Shown here piece by piece: positions 42,099-61,907 of a stretch of DNA of 64,000 nucleotides. Source of the stretch: Paracoccaceae bacterium (GTDB taxonomy: Bacteria > Pseudomonadota > Alphaproteobacteria > Rhodobacterales > Rhodobacteraceae); contig CACBXB010000002.1 in the NCBI GenBank assembly GCA_902543185.1, positions 62,001 to 126,000 on the forward strand, written 5' to 3'. Each line of letters starts with the position of its first letter. The first letter of the stretch is position 1. Position numbers and translations under genes: made by a program. Under the pieces are notes generated by a model. That model did not search any database, was not told the origin of the DNA, and saw nothing but the letters and a program-made list of their open reading frames with translations.

Positions 42099-43595
42099 AT
42101 GGTAAATAACACGTTTTTACTGCTTGGAGATCAGCTTTTTGATCCCAAAATATTAAAGCATAAGGGCTGTAAGCGGGTGTTTATGGCTGAAGATTACGGT
42201 CTATGTACTTACGAGAAGCACCACAAACTCAAAATCTATTTATATTTATGTGCCATGCGCGAATATAAGGAGGAGTTAGAACGTAACGGCATTCAAGTAG
42301 ACTATTTCTCTCTAGAGGCTCGTTCAGATGATAAAACTTATATAGAGTTTTTGGTCGAATTTTTACACGAAAAAAAAATTGATAGAGTAGATATTTTTGA
42401 AATTGAGAATAAATCTTTTGAAAAAAACTTGTTAGCAGCTTTAGAAATAGCTGAAATAAAATACGAGCTTTTTGAAACTCCAATGTTTCTATTTTCTCGC
42501 AAAGAATTCGGTTTGCTCTATGGCAAAAATAAGTCCTTTAGGTTGGGTAATTTTTATAAAGTAGGTCGCAAGAAATTCAATATTTTAGTCGATGGCGTAG
42601 GAAATCCTATAGGTGATCGTTGGTCATTTGATGAAGAAAATAGGAAAAAAATTCCGGCTAAAACGCACATCCCTGAATTACCCAAATTTAATTTATCAGA
42701 GCACCATGAGGCGGTTTCAACTATCGTCGAAAAACATTTTTTGGAGCATCCAGGAAATACTAAAAATGTTTGGTTTCCCGTAACACGTTCCGGAGCTTTA
42801 GAACTTTTGGACAATTTTTTGAGTCAGAGATTAGAAAATTTTGGCGCTTATGAAGATGCTATGCTAAAGGATCAAAATTTTTTATTTCATAGTTGTATAT
42901 CTGCAATGCTAAATATCGGACTAATTACTCCAGACATAGTAATTGAAAAAGTAATAGACTTATTCAGAAAAAACAAAGCTCCTTTGAATTCTGTTGAGGG
43001 GTTTATAAGGCAAATATTGGGCTGGCGTGAATTTGTACGTGGTATTTATCAGCTCAGAGGTACAGAACAGAAAAAATCGAATTTCTGGGGTCATCAAAGG
43101 AAACTGAGCCAAAGTTGGTATGATGGTTCAACTGGTTTATTGCCCCTTGATGATTGTATTAAATCTGCTCTTAAAGACGGATATAGCCATCACATACCAA
43201 GGCTTATGGTCATTTGTAATTTGATGAATATGTGTGAAGTTGATCCAAAATTTATTTATAAATGGTTTATGGAGATGTATATTGATGCGTCTGATTGGGT
43301 TATGATACCTAACGTTTTTGGAATGGCGACGTACTCTGATGGTGGTTTAATGTCGACAAAACCATATACTTGTAGCTCCAATTATATTTTAAAAATGAGC
43401 AACTATGAGAAGGGTGCTTGGTGTGACGTAATTGACGGTCTGTATTGGAGATTTATTCAAAAAAATATTGAATTTTACTCTTCAAATCCACGCTTATCTT
43501 TTCAAACCAGATTACTCAGCAGAATGAGTGAGGATAGAAAAGCTTTAATTTTTAAAAAGGCCGACGAATTTTTAGAAGTTCACACCAGATTGTAA
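42099..43595 (+). CDS. Photolyase/cryptochrome of the FeS-BCP (PhrB/CryB) group, cluster loop shortened
   Basis: A 498-residue FAD protein of the prokaryotic (6-4) photolyase / CryB group. The N-terminus (LLLGDQLFDP), GWREFVRGIYQLRG, DGYSHHIPRLMV and DWVMIPNVFGMATYSDGG with TKPYTCSSNYILKMSNY are characteristic. In PhrB and CryB this is followed by a CxxC and an ACPF cysteine that bind a 4Fe-4S cluster. Here the text reads EKGAWCDVIDGLYWRF: the CxxC is absent and about a dozen residues are missing, leaving one cysteine. So the cluster is probably lost. Whether it repairs DNA or senses light cannot be told. Confidence 0.85.
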   Translation: MVNNTFLLLGDQLFDPKILKHKGCKRVFMAEDYGLCTYEKHHKLKIYLYLCAMREYKEELERNGIQVDYFSLEARSDDKTYIEFLVEFLHEKKIDRVDIFEIENKSFEKNLLAALEIAEIKYELFETPMFLFSRKEFGLLYGKNKSFRLGNFYKVGRKKFNILVDGVGNPIGDRWSFDEENRKKIPAKTHIPELPKFNLSEHHEAVSTIVEKHFLEHPGNTKNVWFPVTRSGALELLDNFLSQRLENFGAYEDAMLKDQNFLFHSCISAMLNIGLITPDIVIEKVIDLFRKNKAPLNSVEGFIRQILGWREFVRGIYQLRGTEQKKSNFWGHQRKLSQSWYDGSTGLLPLDDCIKSALKDGYSHHIPRLMVICNLMNMCEVDPKFIYKWFMEMYIDASDWVMIPNVFGMATYSDGGLMSTKPYTCSSNYILKMSNYEKGAWCDVIDGLYWRFIQKNIEFYSSNPRLSFQTRLLSRMSEDRKALIFKKADEFLEVHTRL

Positions 43596-45815: not shown

Positions 45816-46937
45816 TTATGATGGATATGCGATTACACCACCCGTCATAGGTTTCAAAACACCCGTTGTTTTGGGATATGAAATTGGAAGATTTGCCAGA
45901 GTTCTTGCCGCAAGAAAGGCAAAACATTCTGCTTCTATGGCATCCCCGCGCCAATTATATTTATCGGCGGATTCAACTTTGATGTTGGCCCTAGACGAGA
46001 TTTCTTGCATCATTGTAACGTTTTTTCGTCCACCACCTGAAACGATCAACTGGGTCGGGCGTATGGGTAAAAGGTCAAGGCTTTTTCCAACTGATGCTCC
46101 CACTAATGCAGTCAAAGTTGCGGCACCGTCTTCAAGTGACATGCCTTCGGCAATTTTATAAGAAAAATCAAAACGATCTAAAGACTTTGGGAAAGAAACT
46201 TCAAAATAGGGGTCTTTCAATATTTCAGCTAGTTTGCTTTCGTCTGCTTTTCCCCCGGCTGCTATTTCGCCATCTATATCCATTTGGCCAATATTGAAGG
46301 ACTTTATCCAATCATTTAATGGCGCGTTGGCCGGACCGGTGTCGAAAGCCATAAGCCCGTATTTATTAGAGTAGCAACTTAAATTTCCCAAACCGCCTAA
46401 ATTTAGTATTGCTGTAGTTGAAGTCGCTGCAATTTTTTTTAATAGCGCAGCATGATAAATTGGACAAAGTGGGGCACCTTGTCCGCCTTCCCTCATATCG
46501 TTGGTTCGAAAGTCATAAACGACGGGTATACCAAGCTCATTGGCCATTCTTTGGCCGTCACCTAATTGCCGTGTTTTACCTTTTGATAACTTATTCGGAG
46601 CTTTGTGGAGAACAGTTTGTCCATGAAAACCAACAGCTTCAATTTCATTTTTATCTATTCCTGAAAGCTTAATGCACTTCTGAACAGCTACTGTTTGAGA
46701 TTTTGTTAGCGCGGCTTCTGTTTTAGAAAAGATTTCTGGCTCAGGCCCATTAAAATTCCAAATTTGAGCTTCATTAATAGCTTTAATGAGTAGAGCTTTT
46801 ACTTCTTCATCGTAGAGCATCAAATTATAGTACCCAAATTCTTCTATCAATTTCCCATCAGTACGCAAAAACGCAACATCGATGTTTCCATCTAAAACTG
46901 TCCCAGTCATAAGGCCAATATGCCAGCGCATTTTCAT
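45816..46937 (-). CDS. anmK: Anhydro-N-acetylmuramic acid kinase
   Basis: Phosphorylates and opens 1,6-anhydro-MurNAc, released by lytic transglycosylases, to MurNAc-6-P. The protein (373 residues from this start) opens with GLMTGTVLDGNIDVA, the ATP-binding start of the family, and has AVGFHGQTVLH, NLGGLGNLS, AFDTGPANAPLND and VSGGGRKN. ATG 46937 brings the family motif near the N-terminus; an in-frame ATG at 46988 adds 17 residues and is possible. Convergent with nagA. Confidence 0.93.
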   Translation of the reverse strand: MKMRWHIGLMTGTVLDGNIDVAFLRTDGKLIEEFGYYNLMLYDEEVKALLIKAINEAQIWNFNGPEPEIFSKTEAALTKSQTVAVQKCIKLSGIDKNEIEAVGFHGQTVLHKAPNKLSKGKTRQLGDGQRMANELGIPVVYDFRTNDMREGGQGAPLCPIYHAALLKKIAATSTTAILNLGGLGNLSCYSNKYGLMAFDTGPANAPLNDWIKSFNIGQMDIDGEIAAGGKADESKLAEILKDPYFEVSFPKSLDRFDFSYKIAEGMSLEDGAATLTALVGASVGKSLDLLPIRPTQLIVSGGGRKNVTMMQEISSRANIKVESADKYNWRGDAIEAECFAFLAARTLANLPISYPKTTGVLKPMTGGVIAYPS

Positions 46938-47126
46938 ATCGGTTCTTAGTTTCCTTAGCCATAAATAATACAGGCAATTGTTATTCATTCACTTTCTAAA
47001 GTAGTTGATGAGCCCGCTGTCTTTGTAAAGGGGCTAAAGATGGCCACTTATTTTTAGAAGAGTATTTTTTTTATTTTAAAAACTGAAAAGATTTTTTTAA
47101 AATTAATAGGGCCTACAATCTGATGC

Positions 47127-49772
47127 TTACTTGTTTATAGCCGTCCGTATTTTTTTACTTAGAAGAGCATAACCAACATCATTCATATGAAGTGGGTCGT
47201 CACTGTAAAAAGTATTTTTATCCCCTCCATAAGCCTCGAGCATGGAGGAGTGTATATCTATAAAATTCCAATTTTCTTTATTTTTAACATGCTCTTCTAA
47301 GCAAAAATTGACCTTTTCAATCTCTTGTCTCAGGTGGCGTCTGAATGGACAAGGTTTGATCGAAATAACAAAAACCTCAAATTTTGGCAGAAGTTCTTTT
47401 ACCGTTGTAAGAAAATTTTTATAGTCCCTCACAACTTCAGGAACAGATAGACCGCCACCTAGATCATTATCCCCTGCATAAATAATAATTTTTCCATTGG
47501 TTATGCTGGTGGTTAAAAGCTTTTCTGCAAATGCCTGGCAAGCAGCAAGAGTTGCACCGCCAAACGCTAAATTAGATAGATATGAGACGCCTAAATCAGT
47601 CTTTGCATCTTTCCAAAGCCTTAGAGTCGAACTCCCATACAAAATGAAATCTTGTTCTTTTGTTTTACTAATATGGTTTTGGATTTCAACTTCACGGATG
47701 TCAGTCCCAAATTCTTCCTCTACAGGGCTAAGCAAACCAACGTTTGTTGACAATGTTTGACGTTTTGCCAGAGGCATGACATTTAATTCTACAGCAAGTT
47801 CTATTGCTTCCTCAACATATGATCTGAATGTTTTTCTATATTTTGTAAGGAAGTTTTCTATCTCAGCATCGCTTGAAGTGTCCTCTACCATATCAGACAA
47901 TCTGAAACCTGGTTTTATTACAGCCGCGTAATTCGCTCTAGAAACAGGAGAGTCAAAATTTGCAAGAGCTATTGGGACGATTACGGGAGAGGGCTTCAAA
48001 CGTGCAGCAAGTTTAAAAGCTCCAATTTTCAAAGGCCCTGGAGATGTCTCTGTTAAATTATCTGGAGTTTCTGATGTTCCTTCTGGAGCAATAACGAGTG
48101 GACGCCCTTCGTCAAATGCTTTTTGAGCTTCTATAAACAAACTCTCCTTTCTGGTTTCCTTTTCAACTTGAGTTTCCTCTAGTCTGTCTGACTCTGGTGT
48201 GTGGACTACAATATTATCAAGCCGTGAGTAGTAACCGTTACGCCAAAATTCGGTATTTCTACTTGCACGAACAATTCTTTGTCCTCCATCGCCGTATTCT
48301 GGATACAGAATTTTGGTACTTACAAAATGGCTATCAATCGAAAAAGCGTGACCATTTGCCAGAACGTTTTCCGGACATGACGCCAAGTGATTATATATGA
48401 AAATGGTCTGGGGCTCTTTAGGCAGATTTTCCATACCTTTTATGACGTAAGGTACTTGATCAAATGCCCTGGTGAAATCCAATTGAATAGGCTCTTTTAA
48501 ACTTAATGCATTTGTACCCTTTTTTGCACTCGTAACGCGGGTATAAATTTTGTTCAATTGCTCAAAAAAACGATGCTCCCGTTCAACTGGCTTAAGCGCA
48601 TCTAGCGCCAGTGACCCTACTGTTTTTTCAGCCTCGTTTCCCTTAAGAGCTGCCTCATAAATGCAGTCGAAACCAAACTTTCTTGTAAACCTGTTGTCAA
48701 TCATGTGGACTGCAGAATGTAATGAGGATTGTACGGGAATTTTTGACCCATTAAAGGTAATCAAGGTCTTTAGAAAATTAGATCCTGGATTGTCCGAAAA
48801 ATTAAAGTGGCTATTAGCTGATTGTTGATAACGACCAATTTGCCAAATTTGCCTTTGAAATAGAAAAGAAGCGAGTAGGGGTTCATTTTCCATCATCAGT
48901 TGCAAGTTTTTGTGAGAAAACTTAAGGATTGCCGTGTCGCGGTTCGATTTTAGGGAGTAGGGGGCTATTAACTTAGAATTTCCGTTTGCCCAAGAAAGGG
49001 TAACACCTGGTGTTACAATTGTTCGGGTCTTTTGAATTATTTTATTATTTAGTTTAAATGAAAAGTTAGTCTCTAAACTACCTGTGAATAAAACTATTAG
49101 ATCTTCACATGGTTCCCCTTCATTAATGATGACTTCGTTGGCTGGGAATAATATTAATTCACTAAACTTTAAAAGGTCGGGTAATCTGTCGTGGTCAAGT
49201 TGAGCAAAAAAAGCACTGTTAATTAGCCTTTTCACAATATCTCTGTCGCTATTAAATGAAACACCATTAAATTTTTTTTGTATCTGCTTTGGTTTCTTTG
49301 GTTTGAAATGGCGTGTAGCCCATAAAAGCTCAGTTGATCGGCTAAGAATAAAGCTCATCAGAAAAGAGCCCCCAATTTGGTCGATCATTAAAAGATCATA
49401 TAGAACAGAGAGCGGAAAAACTAAAACCTTGCTTTCGTCTTTGGCTGTAAGATTTGACATGTACCTGCCCGGTGAATTTAATCCTGATATACCGAGTGGC
49501 ACAATACGTTCAGTAACAGTCGCAAAAGTAATATTTTGGTCTTCAGCTTCTCTTGTAAATTCAACTTTTCCGTCAACCAAAAAGTATAGATTTTCCGCTA
49601 TTTGGTTTTGATGAAAAATAGTATCTCTAGCTTTATAAACTTCAAAGCGACAATGTTTATCAATCAAGTTTTTAGCTTTTTCCGAAAGCTGCAGTTGCAA
49701 ATCAAAATAACGTGTACTTTCATCGAAAAACGAAGAAATATCTTCGTTCATATTTTGTAAAATTTTCAACAT
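47127..49772 (-). CDS. Fusion: two cNMP-type sensor domains, PlsC-like acyltransferase, SGNH hydrolase
   Basis: An 881-residue multidomain protein I do not recognise as a named enzyme. Residues about 25-150 and 185-315 each look like a Crp-type cyclic-nucleotide-binding domain (for example LYFLVDGKVEF and LIVLFTGSLETNF), but neither shows the canonical phosphate-binding Arg motif, so the ligand is uncertain. Residues about 440-650 resemble a lysophospholipid acyltransferase: NHLASCPEN at 461-469 and PEGTSE at 564-569; the usual block I Asp (H-x4-D) is replaced by Pro with Glu468 next. Residues 705-881 are an SGNH hydrolase with Ser715 (YGSST), Asn769 (AGDND) and Asp859/His862 (DDPLH) all present. 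No membrane segment is evident. A phosphodiesterase gene follows upstream on the same strand. Confidence 0.82.
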   Translation of the reverse strand: MLKILQNMNEDISSFFDESTRYFDLQLQLSEKAKNLIDKHCRFEVYKARDTIFHQNQIAENLYFLVDGKVEFTREAEDQNITFATVTERIVPLGISGLNSPGRYMSNLTAKDESKVLVFPLSVLYDLLMIDQIGGSFLMSFILSRSTELLWATRHFKPKKPKQIQKKFNGVSFNSDRDIVKRLINSAFFAQLDHDRLPDLLKFSELILFPANEVIINEGEPCEDLIVLFTGSLETNFSFKLNNKIIQKTRTIVTPGVTLSWANGNSKLIAPYSLKSNRDTAILKFSHKNLQLMMENEPLLASFLFQRQIWQIGRYQQSANSHFNFSDNPGSNFLKTLITFNGSKIPVQSSLHSAVHMIDNRFTRKFGFDCIYEAALKGNEAEKTVGSLALDALKPVEREHRFFEQLNKIYTRVTSAKKGTNALSLKEPIQLDFTRAFDQVPYVIKGMENLPKEPQTIFIYNHLASCPENVLANGHAFSIDSHFVSTKILYPEYGDGGQRIVRASRNTEFWRNGYYSRLDNIVVHTPESDRLEETQVEKETRKESLFIEAQKAFDEGRPLVIAPEGTSETPDNLTETSPGPLKIGAFKLAARLKPSPVIVPIALANFDSPVSRANYAAVIKPGFRLSDMVEDTSSDAEIENFLTKYRKTFRSYVEEAIELAVELNVMPLAKRQTLSTNVGLLSPVEEEFGTDIREVEIQNHISKTKEQDFILYGSSTLRLWKDAKTDLGVSYLSNLAFGGATLAACQAFAEKLLTTSITNGKIIIYAGDNDLGGGLSVPEVVRDYKNFLTTVKELLPKFEVFVISIKPCPFRRHLRQEIEKVNFCLEEHVKNKENWNFIDIHSSMLEAYGGDKNTFYSDDPLHMNDVGYALLSKKIRTAINK

Positions 49773-49935
49773 CCCGTTGCCAACCTTTGGATTAGGTACT
49801 CTAGTCTTGCTGACATCGAATTGAGTTGAAAATTTTTGGAGCTGTTTATGGAAAAAAAGTTATTTAGAGGAATTTTCTGTCTAAATTTTATTCAATGAGC
49901 CAAAATTTTAGCCGTTTTCTCAAATCAAACTATTT

Positions 49936-51396: not shown

Positions 51397-52611
51397 ATGA
51401 GTATATTGCATGGTATGCGGGTTTTTGAAAGCTCAGCTTTTGTTGCTTTACCTCTTGCAGGCATGCAATTAGCCCAAATGGGTGCAGAAGTTATCCGGTT
51501 TGATAATTTAGGGGGAGGCCTTGATCACTTCAGAAGACCGCTCGCTCCTAATGGCGAAAGCTTATTTTGGCATGGGCTAAATAAGGGAAAAAAATCTTTT
51601 GCCGTAGATTTAAAATCTGAAAAAGGGCGTGAACTGGTTAGTGATTTAATAACTTCAGAGGGTGATGATGCAGGTTTGTTCATAACCAATCTGAGAGTTG
51701 CAGGTTGGACAGATTATGAAAGCCTTAAAAGGAAGCGAGCCGATTTAATAATGGTTACTTTGAAAGGCGATCGCCATGGTCGGCCAGAAGTTGACTATAC
51801 TGTTAACCCATCGCTTGGAATACCCCACATTACTGGAGCTGAAGGCAGCACAGAACCTGTTGCAAATGCTCTTCCCGCCTGGGATTGCGTAGCAGGTAAT
51901 ATGGTCGTTTCTTCACTACTTGCAGCTGAACGAGATCGTATGCGAACTGGAAGGGGTCAGGATGTGGAGTTCGCTTTAAAAGATGCTGCAGCTGCAGTAA
52001 TTGGTCATCTTGGAATGATAGGAGAGGCGACTATTTACGACCAACAAAGAGGAAAATCGGGCAATGCTGTATATGGAGCCTATGGCCAGGATTTCGAGTG
52101 TGCTTGCGGTGGTCGAGTTGTTGTAATTGGTCTTACCTTACGGCAATGGCGTGGCCTATTAAAAGCCACAGATAAAGCACAGGAAATCAAAAACCTTGAA
52201 CAAAAATTAAACCTTTCTTTAGACGACGAAGGGCATCGTTGGGAGCATAGGCATGAAATAAATGATGTTTTTCGGTCTTGGTTTACAAAGCGAAAAATTT
52301 CTGATTTTGAGAATAATTTTAATGATTTTGGTCTCACCTGGTCGCGATTTAGAACAACAAAAGAGGCAATTACTGAGGATAAAGATACATTCACTGGTAA
52401 TCCAATGTTTGAAACATTAAATTTTGAGGGAATTGGCGAATACATGGTCCCTAGATCACCATTAGAATTTTCTAATTATGATACCTTGCCTGCTCTTAGA
52501 CCCCCAAAGCTTGGTCAGCACACTGAAGAAATACTGGGTGATATAATGAAGTTGGGATCAGGTGAGATTGGAGCACTTTTTGATAGTGGAACCGTTGGTT
52601 GTCCCAAATAA
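51397..52611 (+). CDS. mct: Mesaconyl-CoA C1-C4 CoA transferase-like (2-methylfumaryl-CoA isomerase)
   Basis: A class III (CaiB/BaiF) CoA transferase of 404 residues. It strongly resembles, from memory, the Chloroflexus enzyme that moves CoA within mesaconate in the 3-hydroxypropionate bi-cycle: SAFVALPLAGM, QLAQMGAEVIRFD, SLFWHGLNKGKKS, EVDYTVNPSLGI and IGHLGMIGE. The catalytic aspartate should be D163 in the PAWD motif. GGGGG precedes the ATG. None of the partner genes (mesaconyl-CoA hydratase or lyase) is adjacent. Assignment to this exact reaction is inference; the family is secure. Confidence 0.82.
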   Translation: MSILHGMRVFESSAFVALPLAGMQLAQMGAEVIRFDNLGGGLDHFRRPLAPNGESLFWHGLNKGKKSFAVDLKSEKGRELVSDLITSEGDDAGLFITNLRVAGWTDYESLKRKRADLIMVTLKGDRHGRPEVDYTVNPSLGIPHITGAEGSTEPVANALPAWDCVAGNMVVSSLLAAERDRMRTGRGQDVEFALKDAAAAVIGHLGMIGEATIYDQQRGKSGNAVYGAYGQDFECACGGRVVVIGLTLRQWRGLLKATDKAQEIKNLEQKLNLSLDDEGHRWEHRHEINDVFRSWFTKRKISDFENNFNDFGLTWSRFRTTKEAITEDKDTFTGNPMFETLNFEGIGEYMVPRSPLEFSNYDTLPALRPPKLGQHTEEILGDIMKLGSGEIGALFDSGTVGCPK

Positions 52612-61185: not shown

Positions 61186-61907
61186 TGCTCTACGCGATTC
61201 AATATATACGTTCTTTTCTGTTTCTTATTCAGATGTATTTAATGATGGTGGTTTTTGGCTTGGTGTTTTGTCCATTTGTAATGCTCAATAGAAAGCATTC
61301 GTATTTGGCTGTTCATGTTTGGTGTAGATGGGTCCGTTGGACAGCTGCTTGGATGGTTGGATTAAAATCTGAGGTTAGGGGTGTTATTCCAGATAATGAG
61401 CTAATTATCGCGGCGAAACATCAAAGTTTCTTCGATATAATCTTGATTGTTAGTGAAACGCCAAGGCCAAAATTTATAATGAAGTCATCGTTGCGGTGGG
61501 CTCCGGTGTTGGGCTGGTATGCAAAAAAAATAGGATGTGTTCCCGTTGAGCGTGGGAAAAGATCTGAAGCCATACAAAGAATGATGTCTGCTGTTGCCTC
61601 GGGTGCAACCCCTCCTGGTCAGCTCATTATTTATCCACAGGGAACGAGAGTGACGCCAGGCGATTCTAAACCATATAAAATCGGTGTAGCTGCACTCTAT
61701 CAACAGACCGGTCAAGACTGTTTGCCAGTAGCGTGCAATGTAGGGGTTTTCTGGCCTAAATATGGCATCATACGTAAACCCGGAGTGGCAGTCGTTGAAT
61801 GTTTGCCTGTAATACCAGCAGGATTAGAGAACTCAGAACTTATGTCTGAACTTGAAAATTCTATAGAAAAAAGAACAAATCAGTTAATCGCCGAAGTAAA
61901 AATATAA
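61185..61907 (+). CDS. plsC: 1-acyl-sn-glycerol-3-phosphate acyltransferase
   Basis: Makes phosphatidic acid from lysophosphatidic acid. The 240-residue protein has two hydrophobic N-terminal segments, the catalytic block KHQSFFD (H-x4-D), a KKIGCVPVERG block II, and YPQGTRVTPG (block III). Unlike the acyltransferase domain in the fusion at 47127-49772, its block I aspartate is intact. The start ATG 61185 overlaps the ftsX stop. It is the third gene of ftsE-ftsX-plsC. Confidence 0.93.
   Translation: MLYAIQYIRSFLFLIQMYLMMVVFGLVFCPFVMLNRKHSYLAVHVWCRWVRWTAAWMVGLKSEVRGVIPDNELIIAAKHQSFFDIILIVSETPRPKFIMKSSLRWAPVLGWYAKKIGCVPVERGKRSEAIQRMMSAVASGATPPGQLIIYPQGTRVTPGDSKPYKIGVAALYQQTGQDCLPVACNVGVFWPKYGIIRKPGVAVVECLPVIPAGLENSELMSELENSIEKRTNQLIAEVKI

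Follow-up and report, generated by a model that had tools for sequence, protein, structure and literature searches.

Architecture of the Fusion Gene

Within the 64,000-nucleotide stretch of a Paracoccaceae bacterium genome analyzed here (GenBank assembly GCA_902543185.1, contig CACBXB010000002.1, positions 62,001 to 126,000; referred to as the window), one gene encodes a single chain in which two sensor domains of the cyclic nucleotide monophosphate (cNMP) or CRP type, a helical linker, an acyltransferase (AT) domain of the PlsC/glycerol-3-phosphate acyltransferase (GPAT) type and an SGNH hydrolase domain follow one another (Table 1). An earlier note, made from the letters of this DNA alone, had described one unbroken frame of 881 codons holding two Crp-like sensors, an acyltransferase and an SGNH hydrolase. 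The frame is indeed real and open over the entire length of 47127-49772 on the minus strand, while frame 1 of the plus strand is interrupted by many stops over the same positions; the guanine-plus-cytosine fraction of the gene (0.376) is similar to that of the window (0.391). The domain search, the structure prediction and the search for the same domain order in other genomes that the note had suggested have all been carried out: the three domain types are found above their Pfam cut-offs and in the predicted folds, each with a clear structural match, and the order recurs in several marine lineages.

Table 1. Position of the fusion gene, its domains and selected residues in the window
Feature	Coordinates	Strand	Evidence
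Sensor-sensor-acyltransferase-SGNH fusion gene (881 residues plus stop)	47127..49772	-	Open frame, Pfam, relatives
Sensor domain 1, cNMP/CRP type, residues 9-154	49311..49748	-	Pfam; FNR, Z 15.3; motif G94-x-S96-x4-P101-x-R103-[YFH]
Sensor domain 2, cNMP/CRP type, residues 178-320	48813..49241	-	Pfam (two cNMP_binding stretches); 3gyd, Z 15.8; profile matches
Helical linker, residues 325-420	48513..48800	-	Predicted model of residues 325-668; alignments to 1k30 and 1iuq
PlsC/GPAT-type AT domain, residues 421-665	47778..48512	-	PF01553 in 15/15 members of alignment A3; 5kym, Z 15.4 and 14.4
His462, putative catalytic histidine of the AT	48387..48389	-	53/53 full-length sequences; 24/26 of the wide set (Ser in two)
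Asp480, suggested acidic partner of His462	48333..48335	-	53/53; 24/26 of the wide set, absent from the two rows without His462
P563-E564-G565 of the PEGT block	48078..48086	-	26/26 of the wide set
SGNH hydrolase domain, residues 685-881	47130..47720	-	Pfam; PAF-acetylhydrolase, Z 20.2; sialate O-acetylesterase, Z 20.1
Ser715, predicted SGNH nucleophile, block I	47628..47630	-	53/53; Thr in 1/22 fused members of the wide set (L138)
Asp859-x2-His862, SGNH block V	47187..47198	-	53/53
Limits of the gained or lost segment, 2988 bp versus 57 bp in G001	46938..49925	-	G008 and G010 alike

In the Pfam scan, cNMP_binding has been detected in two stretches (55.7 bits, cut-off 27.5), Acyltransferase (PF01553) at residues 530-603 (26.8 bits, cut-off 23; E up to 0.01 among the members of alignment A3) and Lipase_GDSL_2 at residues 726-870 (44.4 bits, cut-off 32.9), while no NCBIfam model reaches its cut-off on the protein. 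The predicted structure of the full-length chain has a mean predicted local distance difference test score (pLDDT) of 69.2 and a predicted template modeling score (pTM) of 0.43, i.e., a middling confidence. FNR aligns to sensor 1 with 133 residues, and 3gyd to sensor 2 with 161 residues (listed range 164-700). The PlsC of T. maritima (5kym) covers model residues 390-664 (221 aligned, root-mean-square deviation, rmsd, 4.3), and the SGNH domain is nearest to platelet-activating factor (PAF) acetylhydrolase (1es9 on residues 684-881, 191 aligned, rmsd 2.8) and sialate O-acetylesterase. A separate model of residues 325-668 (pLDDT 72.9, pTM 0.72) again finds 5kym (222 aligned, rmsd 4.5), and its top 14 structural rows, with Z from 14.4 to 6.4 before a drop to 4.8, consist of 13 acyltransferases, PlsC, plastid GPAT, GPAT1, PatA and LpxM among them, and one complex I entry, with glycerolipid acyltransferases taking five of the six best rows. 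The plastid GPAT alignments (1k30, 1iuq) start at about residue 361, within the helical linker. For the three domain types, profile or residue set and fold agree: PF01553 with PlsC/GPAT, the SGNH residues with the SGNH fold, and the cNMP_binding profile with its fold. By eye, neither an export signal nor a membrane segment has been seen in the fusion protein.

Active-Site Residues

Conservation has been followed in two sets, one of 53 full-length sequences (the window and 52 further loci) and a wide set of 26 rows (22 fused and four SGNH-less). Enzymes of the SGNH/GDSL class are recognized by Ser, Gly, Asn and Asp-x2-His in four blocks, and G713, S714, S715, G739, N769, D859 and H862 are identical in all 53 full-length sequences, so that the complete Ser/Asn/Asp-His set read earlier from the letters holds throughout these. 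The catalytic subunit of PAF-acetylhydrolase Ib has this fold together with the Ser, Gly, Asn and Asp-His residues, and so has the sialate O-acetylesterase of bacteria; in the fusion, block I reads GSST instead of GDS, and the domain is joined to sensors and an AT.

The AT shares its fold with PlsC (5kym), plastid GPAT (1k30/1iuq, where the alignment also covers part of the linker) and GPAT1 (8e4y), whereas its motifs deviate. Classical PlsC or lysophosphatidic acid acyltransferase (LPAAT) enzymes carry HX4D as motif I and EGTRS as motif III. In their place the fusion has HX5E, formed by H462 and E468, and PEGTSE; H462, E468 and E564-G565-T566 are present in 53/53 sequences and S567-E568 in 40/40. 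Since HX4D and EGTRS are missing, the domain has not been filed as an LPAAT. The genome of the window contains two further PF01553 proteins, hence the fusion is not its only PlsC-type enzyme, and one of them has, by eye, an aspartate six residues after the histidine (NHPFGILD), which means that the offset in motif I is not unique to the fusion. When the AT alignment has been compared with both proteins by profile, only the PEG region aligned (probability 1-2%). No close stand-alone relative of the fusion AT has been found in the loci tested, where L107, the sole AT match outside the family, is weak. In the window, a PF01553 match at 61386-61736 (plus strand) lies in a 272-residue frame with the ordinary HX4D form HQSFFD and is probably a housekeeping PlsC.

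Distribution, Selection and Split Forms

A contig scan has yielded 55 loci, five of them in marine Rhodobacteraceae with 85-99% identity and 50 on contigs titled Alphaproteobacteria or Pelagibacteraceae with 42-47%; 52 are full length with the same domain order, and L046, L048 and L061 are cut by contig ends. In the genus of the window, which comprises streamlined marine Rhodobacteraceae, 6 of 16 genomes carry the fusion, and none of 21 in the family's remaining genera that were covered. In the order of G197, which we take to be HIMB59, 56 of 162 genomes match, a few of them partially and all within one of seven genera (3/20 when only genomes at least 90% complete are counted). Single cells of Pelagibacteraceae show the same domain order. 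The proteobacterial family of G583 (f215) matches from sensor 2 to the SGNH domain in 48/48 genomes with frames of 867-933 residues, and sensor 1 is present in the five native members inspected in full; in family f117 two genomes have the full chain. Among 385 genomes drawn from the class 15 match (full in G000, G197, G153 and G258, SGNH-less in G220, single domains in 10), and among 398 drawn from the phylum 27 (full in G000, G583 and G598, SGNH-less in G470 and G473, single domains in 22), both draws containing G000 and overlapping in some genomes.

The nonsynonymous divergence (dN) is at most 0.3 of the synonymous one (dS) in both sensors, the linker, the AT and the SGNH domain in the nine pairs, out of 12 tried, for which dS could be estimated in all five regions. 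As judged from these substitution patterns, all fused parts are kept together under purifying selection.

Forms in which the parts are separated have also been observed. On a Persicobacter plasmid (Bacteroidota, CP012852; L110 8902-11500), a gene of 655 residues codes for the two sensors and the AT, and a separate SGNH gene of 209 residues starts one base further on, an arrangement that links the two parts without fusion. The table of the plasmid collection has no feature annotated at this place. G470 and G473 encode both sensors and the AT in one chain; in G220, sensor 1 has a frame of its own, next to a second one for sensor 2-AT. In a tree of sensor 2 and AT, the 22 fused and the four SGNH-less rows are separated by one branch (support 100/97), a pattern compatible with one fusion event or one loss. 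Family f215 includes one genome, G998, with two copies (L135 8967-11594 and L136 7200-9824), of which one is native and the other shares 53% identity with the main alphaproteobacterial type and groups among the alphaproteobacterial sequences (fork 88/96); the intact unit has therefore probably moved between lineages. Genes near this alphaproteobacterial-type copy look by eye like two-component and ATPase genes.

Out of 51 plasmid records, that of Persicobacter covers more than 80% of the query, and the other 19 of the best 20 match the SGNH part only. An origin from phages has been considered and rejected, as the fusion has no match in phages and none of the 30 and 24 stretches of viral contigs that fit the search patterns is a relative; three PHROGs match, all of them on the SGNH part.

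Proposed Function

Taking these features together, we tentatively favor, at somewhat less than an even chance, an allosterically controlled, bifunctional lipid enzyme, either soluble or peripheral, whose net reaction would be the deacylation and reacylation of a membrane lipid. The tandem sensors would bind a small ligand, perhaps an acyl or lipid-related metabolite, and binding would switch the acyl traffic via the helical linker. The SGNH domain may take an acyl group off a glycerolipid or a thioester, and the AT domain may attach one; His462 is the putative base and is probably paired with the acid Asp480. The latter assignment is suggested by the joint loss of both residues in the same two rows of family f117. 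The net effect would be a Lands cycle on one chain, exchanging damaged or unsuitable acyl chains of the membrane lipid. As far as gene content can tell, the retention of the fusion in small genomes (the 56 of 162 mentioned above) and its match in every genome of f215 count for such acyl editing.

Several observations weigh against this assignment. On the enzymatic side, motif III reads EGTSE where EGTRS is expected, so that a phosphate-bearing acceptor is not assured, and the acid six residues after the histidine (E468) is missing in 9 of the 26 wide rows, the histidine being kept in seven of these. The two f117 members G153 and G258 (L115 1053-3713, L116 7179-9791) have an AT without His462, Asp480 and 18 residues next to an intact SGNH domain, and in the distant member L138 (6810-9425) block I is GSTT, the nucleophilic serine being apparently replaced by threonine. 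With AT residues lost in two members, the SGNH serine in one and the SGNH domain absent in four, both activities need not be used. No SGNH frame has been found for G470, G473 and G220 in the stretches fetched (L113, L114, L117), and the tree of the SGNH domain does not resolve the fused rows as one group (two changes, weak forks). On the signal side, 42 of the genomes of the 55 loci were asked for class III cyclases, incomplete ones included, and 26 of these gene-bearing genomes have them, comprising 5/5 Rhodobacteraceae and 21/26 of the main alphaproteobacterial type, and the genome of the window has seven places with such cyclases, none of them on its contig C2. The models, finally, are of middling quality (pLDDT 69 and 73).

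The loss of AT residues fits with a sensor-gated esterase, in which SGNH would be the sole working enzyme and the AT fold, degenerate in some lineages, would bind lipid or act in coupling. The two f117 members with their intact SGNH residues and the variable acid at His+6 argue for it, as does dN, which in three close pairs is highest in the AT among the five regions (WIN-L010 0.016, L031-L043 0.048, L041-L043 0.047). In other pairs, however, dN of the AT is second-lowest (WIN-L011 0.029, WIN-L012 0.058) or lowest (L013-L037 0.005), H462 and D480 are each retained in 24 of the 26 wide rows and PEG in all 26, and members without a fused SGNH domain still keep their AT residues; we regard an esterase acting alone as unlikely.

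Returning to the bifunctional lipid enzyme, its closest functional counterparts are found among proteins with other folds. PNPLA6/PNPLA7 (neuropathy target esterase) has several cNMP-type domains in front of a lipid-deacylating domain on one chain (PMC9025805); its hydrolase is a patatin instead of an SGNH domain, and it is membrane anchored and described from Drosophila to humans. For comparison, neither Pfam nor NCBIfam yields a patatin match for the fusion protein up to E 1, which sets it apart from this group. Neuropathy target esterase is not known to carry an acyltransferase. Peroxiredoxin 6 is reported to take an acyl chain off a lipid and to put it back, all within one protein (PMC13041650, PMC11047492). 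The fusion would work most like these two systems, with catalytic domains of other kinds. Peroxiredoxin 6 has an unrelated fold and is a thiol peroxidase without a sensor domain. In the cAMP-gated protein acetyltransferases of mycobacteria, a cNMP domain controls an acyltransferase on one chain, which has a GNAT fold, acts on protein substrates and is not accompanied by SGNH. The architecture, which the earlier note did not recognize, is not named as a whole chain by any Pfam or NCBIfam model, and no description of it has been found in the literature searched, with subscription papers and preprints outside that search. The fusion is hence a combination of known domains that is undescribed and widely conserved.

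Sensor Pockets and Candidate Signal

Cyclic-nucleotide receptors proper have an arginine in their phosphate-binding cassette at the place of CRP Arg82, and in the fusion an arginine is found there in neither sensor. At this place sensor 1 (residue 104) has Tyr in 45 and Phe in 8 of the 53 sequences, and sensor 2 (residue 270) has Ser in 39, Phe in 8 and Ala in 6, where the place has been assigned by hand alignment to CRP and may be shifted by one. The absence of the cAMP phosphate-binding arginine, as proposed initially, thus stands for the Arg82 place itself, yet Arg103, one position off, is invariant in sensor 1 (53/53), and so are G94, S96, P101 and R103 in all 25 wide rows that hold the domain, followed by Y, F or H.

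The proposal that the signal might be another ligand than cAMP has become likely in two lineages and less so in the window, whose genome has class III cyclases. None has been detected in four genomes of the sister type (L044, L050, L058, L059) and in seven of Pelagibacteraceae, all incomplete. Assuming alike completeness, 0/7 at the rate of the main type has a chance of 0.19 to the seventh power and is very unlikely. That no class III cyclase was found in these two gene-bearing lineages indicates that the sensors there probably answer to something else. Cyclic di-GMP (c-di-GMP) has been rejected as the ligand, given that GGDEF is found in 0/26 genomes; class I cyclases are likewise found in 0/26, G000 being included in both counts. 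These gene inventories make c-di-GMP an improbable signal and, in the lineages without detected class III cyclases, cAMP as well.

One may alternatively postulate a true receptor for cAMP or another cNMP that gates the lipid enzymes in a manner similar to the cAMP-dependent acetyltransferases. The best Foldseek matches are the regulatory subunits of PKA and PKG, which agrees with such a receptor as do the seven cyclase places in the window's genome, and a CpdA/SpdA-like phosphodiesterase gene (below NCBIfam cut-offs) lies upstream in 5/5 Rhodobacteraceae loci, with a close copy (at least 54%) in 6/6 genomes of the genus that have the fusion versus 3/10 without it. But neither sensor has an arginine at the Arg82 place (sensor 1 has Tyr, Phe or His there), the 11 incomplete genomes of two gene-bearing lineages show no class III cyclase, and three relatives without the fusion have the phosphodiesterase at the same place, so that we hold a cNMP receptor to be quite unlikely.

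Cyclic-nucleotide-gated lipases are known as effectors, and the sensor profile also matches PycTIR (8jsk, E 1e-6), which raises the idea of a Pycsar- or CBASS-like anti-phage effector that destroys membrane lipid once triggered by a cyclic nucleotide. Such a role is extremely improbable, as no PADLOC family matches the fusion, no cognate cyclase accompanies it on the window's contig, relatives are absent from phages and viral contigs, and a match is present in every one of the 48 genomes of one family.

The lipid-editing enzyme may be extended to a more specific picture, namely a one-chain Lands cycle in abundant ocean bacteria, with a ligand that is neither cAMP nor c-di-GMP, a pocket with a displaced invariant arginine, and an intact unit spreading between marine lineages; this conjunction has to be seen as doubtful. 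Regulation in the smallest free-living genomes is commonly regarded as sparse. If both enzymes work, some of these genomes would possess a post-translational, ligand-gated acyl editing, which would provide a testable handle on membrane upkeep in marine alphaproteobacteria and extend the CRP-type sensors by a further class of ligands. Roles may be assigned to the individual parts by comparing the split operon, the forms without SGNH and the members in which one or the other active site has been lost naturally.

Empty Site and Neighboring Genes

In three relatives without the fusion (G001, G008 and G010), the phosphodiesterase and anmK genes are directly adjacent. The window and G001 agree down to 49926 and again from 46937 downward, with 57 bp in between in G001 versus 2988 in the window, and the gene order of the window is also kept in G001 for ilvD, a flavodoxin-like gene, DPRP, murQ and nagA. 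The empty site in G001 indicates that the fusion gene has been gained or lost there as a unit, and since the same neighbors stand together in three relatives without it, they are weak clues to its role. As a clue to cAMP the phosphodiesterase is weakened by the same finding in these genomes; some link between it and the fusion may exist, given the distribution of its close copies in the genus.

The muropeptide genes murQ, nagA and anmK have equally lost weight as a clue to function, G001 and G008 having them together without the fusion. Their vicinity, and OatA SGNH rows in the structural alignment (Z about 15.8), would suit a pair of enzyme domains that, like OatA or OafB type systems, attaches acyl groups to a glycan of the cell wall or surface and takes them off again. 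We consider this highly unlikely, because anmK, nagA and (in G001 and G008) murQ occur together without the fusion and are not among its neighbors in other lineages, because neither an export signal nor a membrane segment is visible by eye, and because the AT matches the PlsC fold and not the membrane acyltransferase-3 kind.

The photolyase-related DPRP gene of the window is located at 42099-43595 (plus strand), and many loci of two further lineages have a member of its cluster at most six genes away from the fusion, the cluster being present in the fetched flanks of 38/55 loci (the flanks are short in many loci, and the count has no baseline). In the eight Pelagibacteraceae loci DCC1-like and DPRP genes come before the fusion, and behind it lies a second gene of the photolyase type, on the opposite strand; an MsrA-like gene, named by eye, is also found near the fusion in this family. 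As an indication of light or repair, DPRP is a weak lead, G001 having it in the window's order without the fusion.

In the main alphaproteobacterial and sister types, all 41 loci that have an upstream gene (L034 7251-7955 and 40 others) show there, on the strand of the fusion and 32-48 bp away from it, a gene of one cluster. The one tested member of this cluster is a Zn_peptidase_2, and a common operon is possible. For anmK (frame 45816-46988, minus strand), the listed start is probably 17 codons early, as agreement with the sequences of G001 and G008 sets in only from the ATG at 46937. On the other side, a CoA-transferase III gene at 51397-52611 (plus strand) is nearest to 2-methylfumaryl-CoA isomerase, an enzyme type of the 3-hydroxypropionate cycle (TIGR04253, E 3e-138, 461 bits, cut-off 725).

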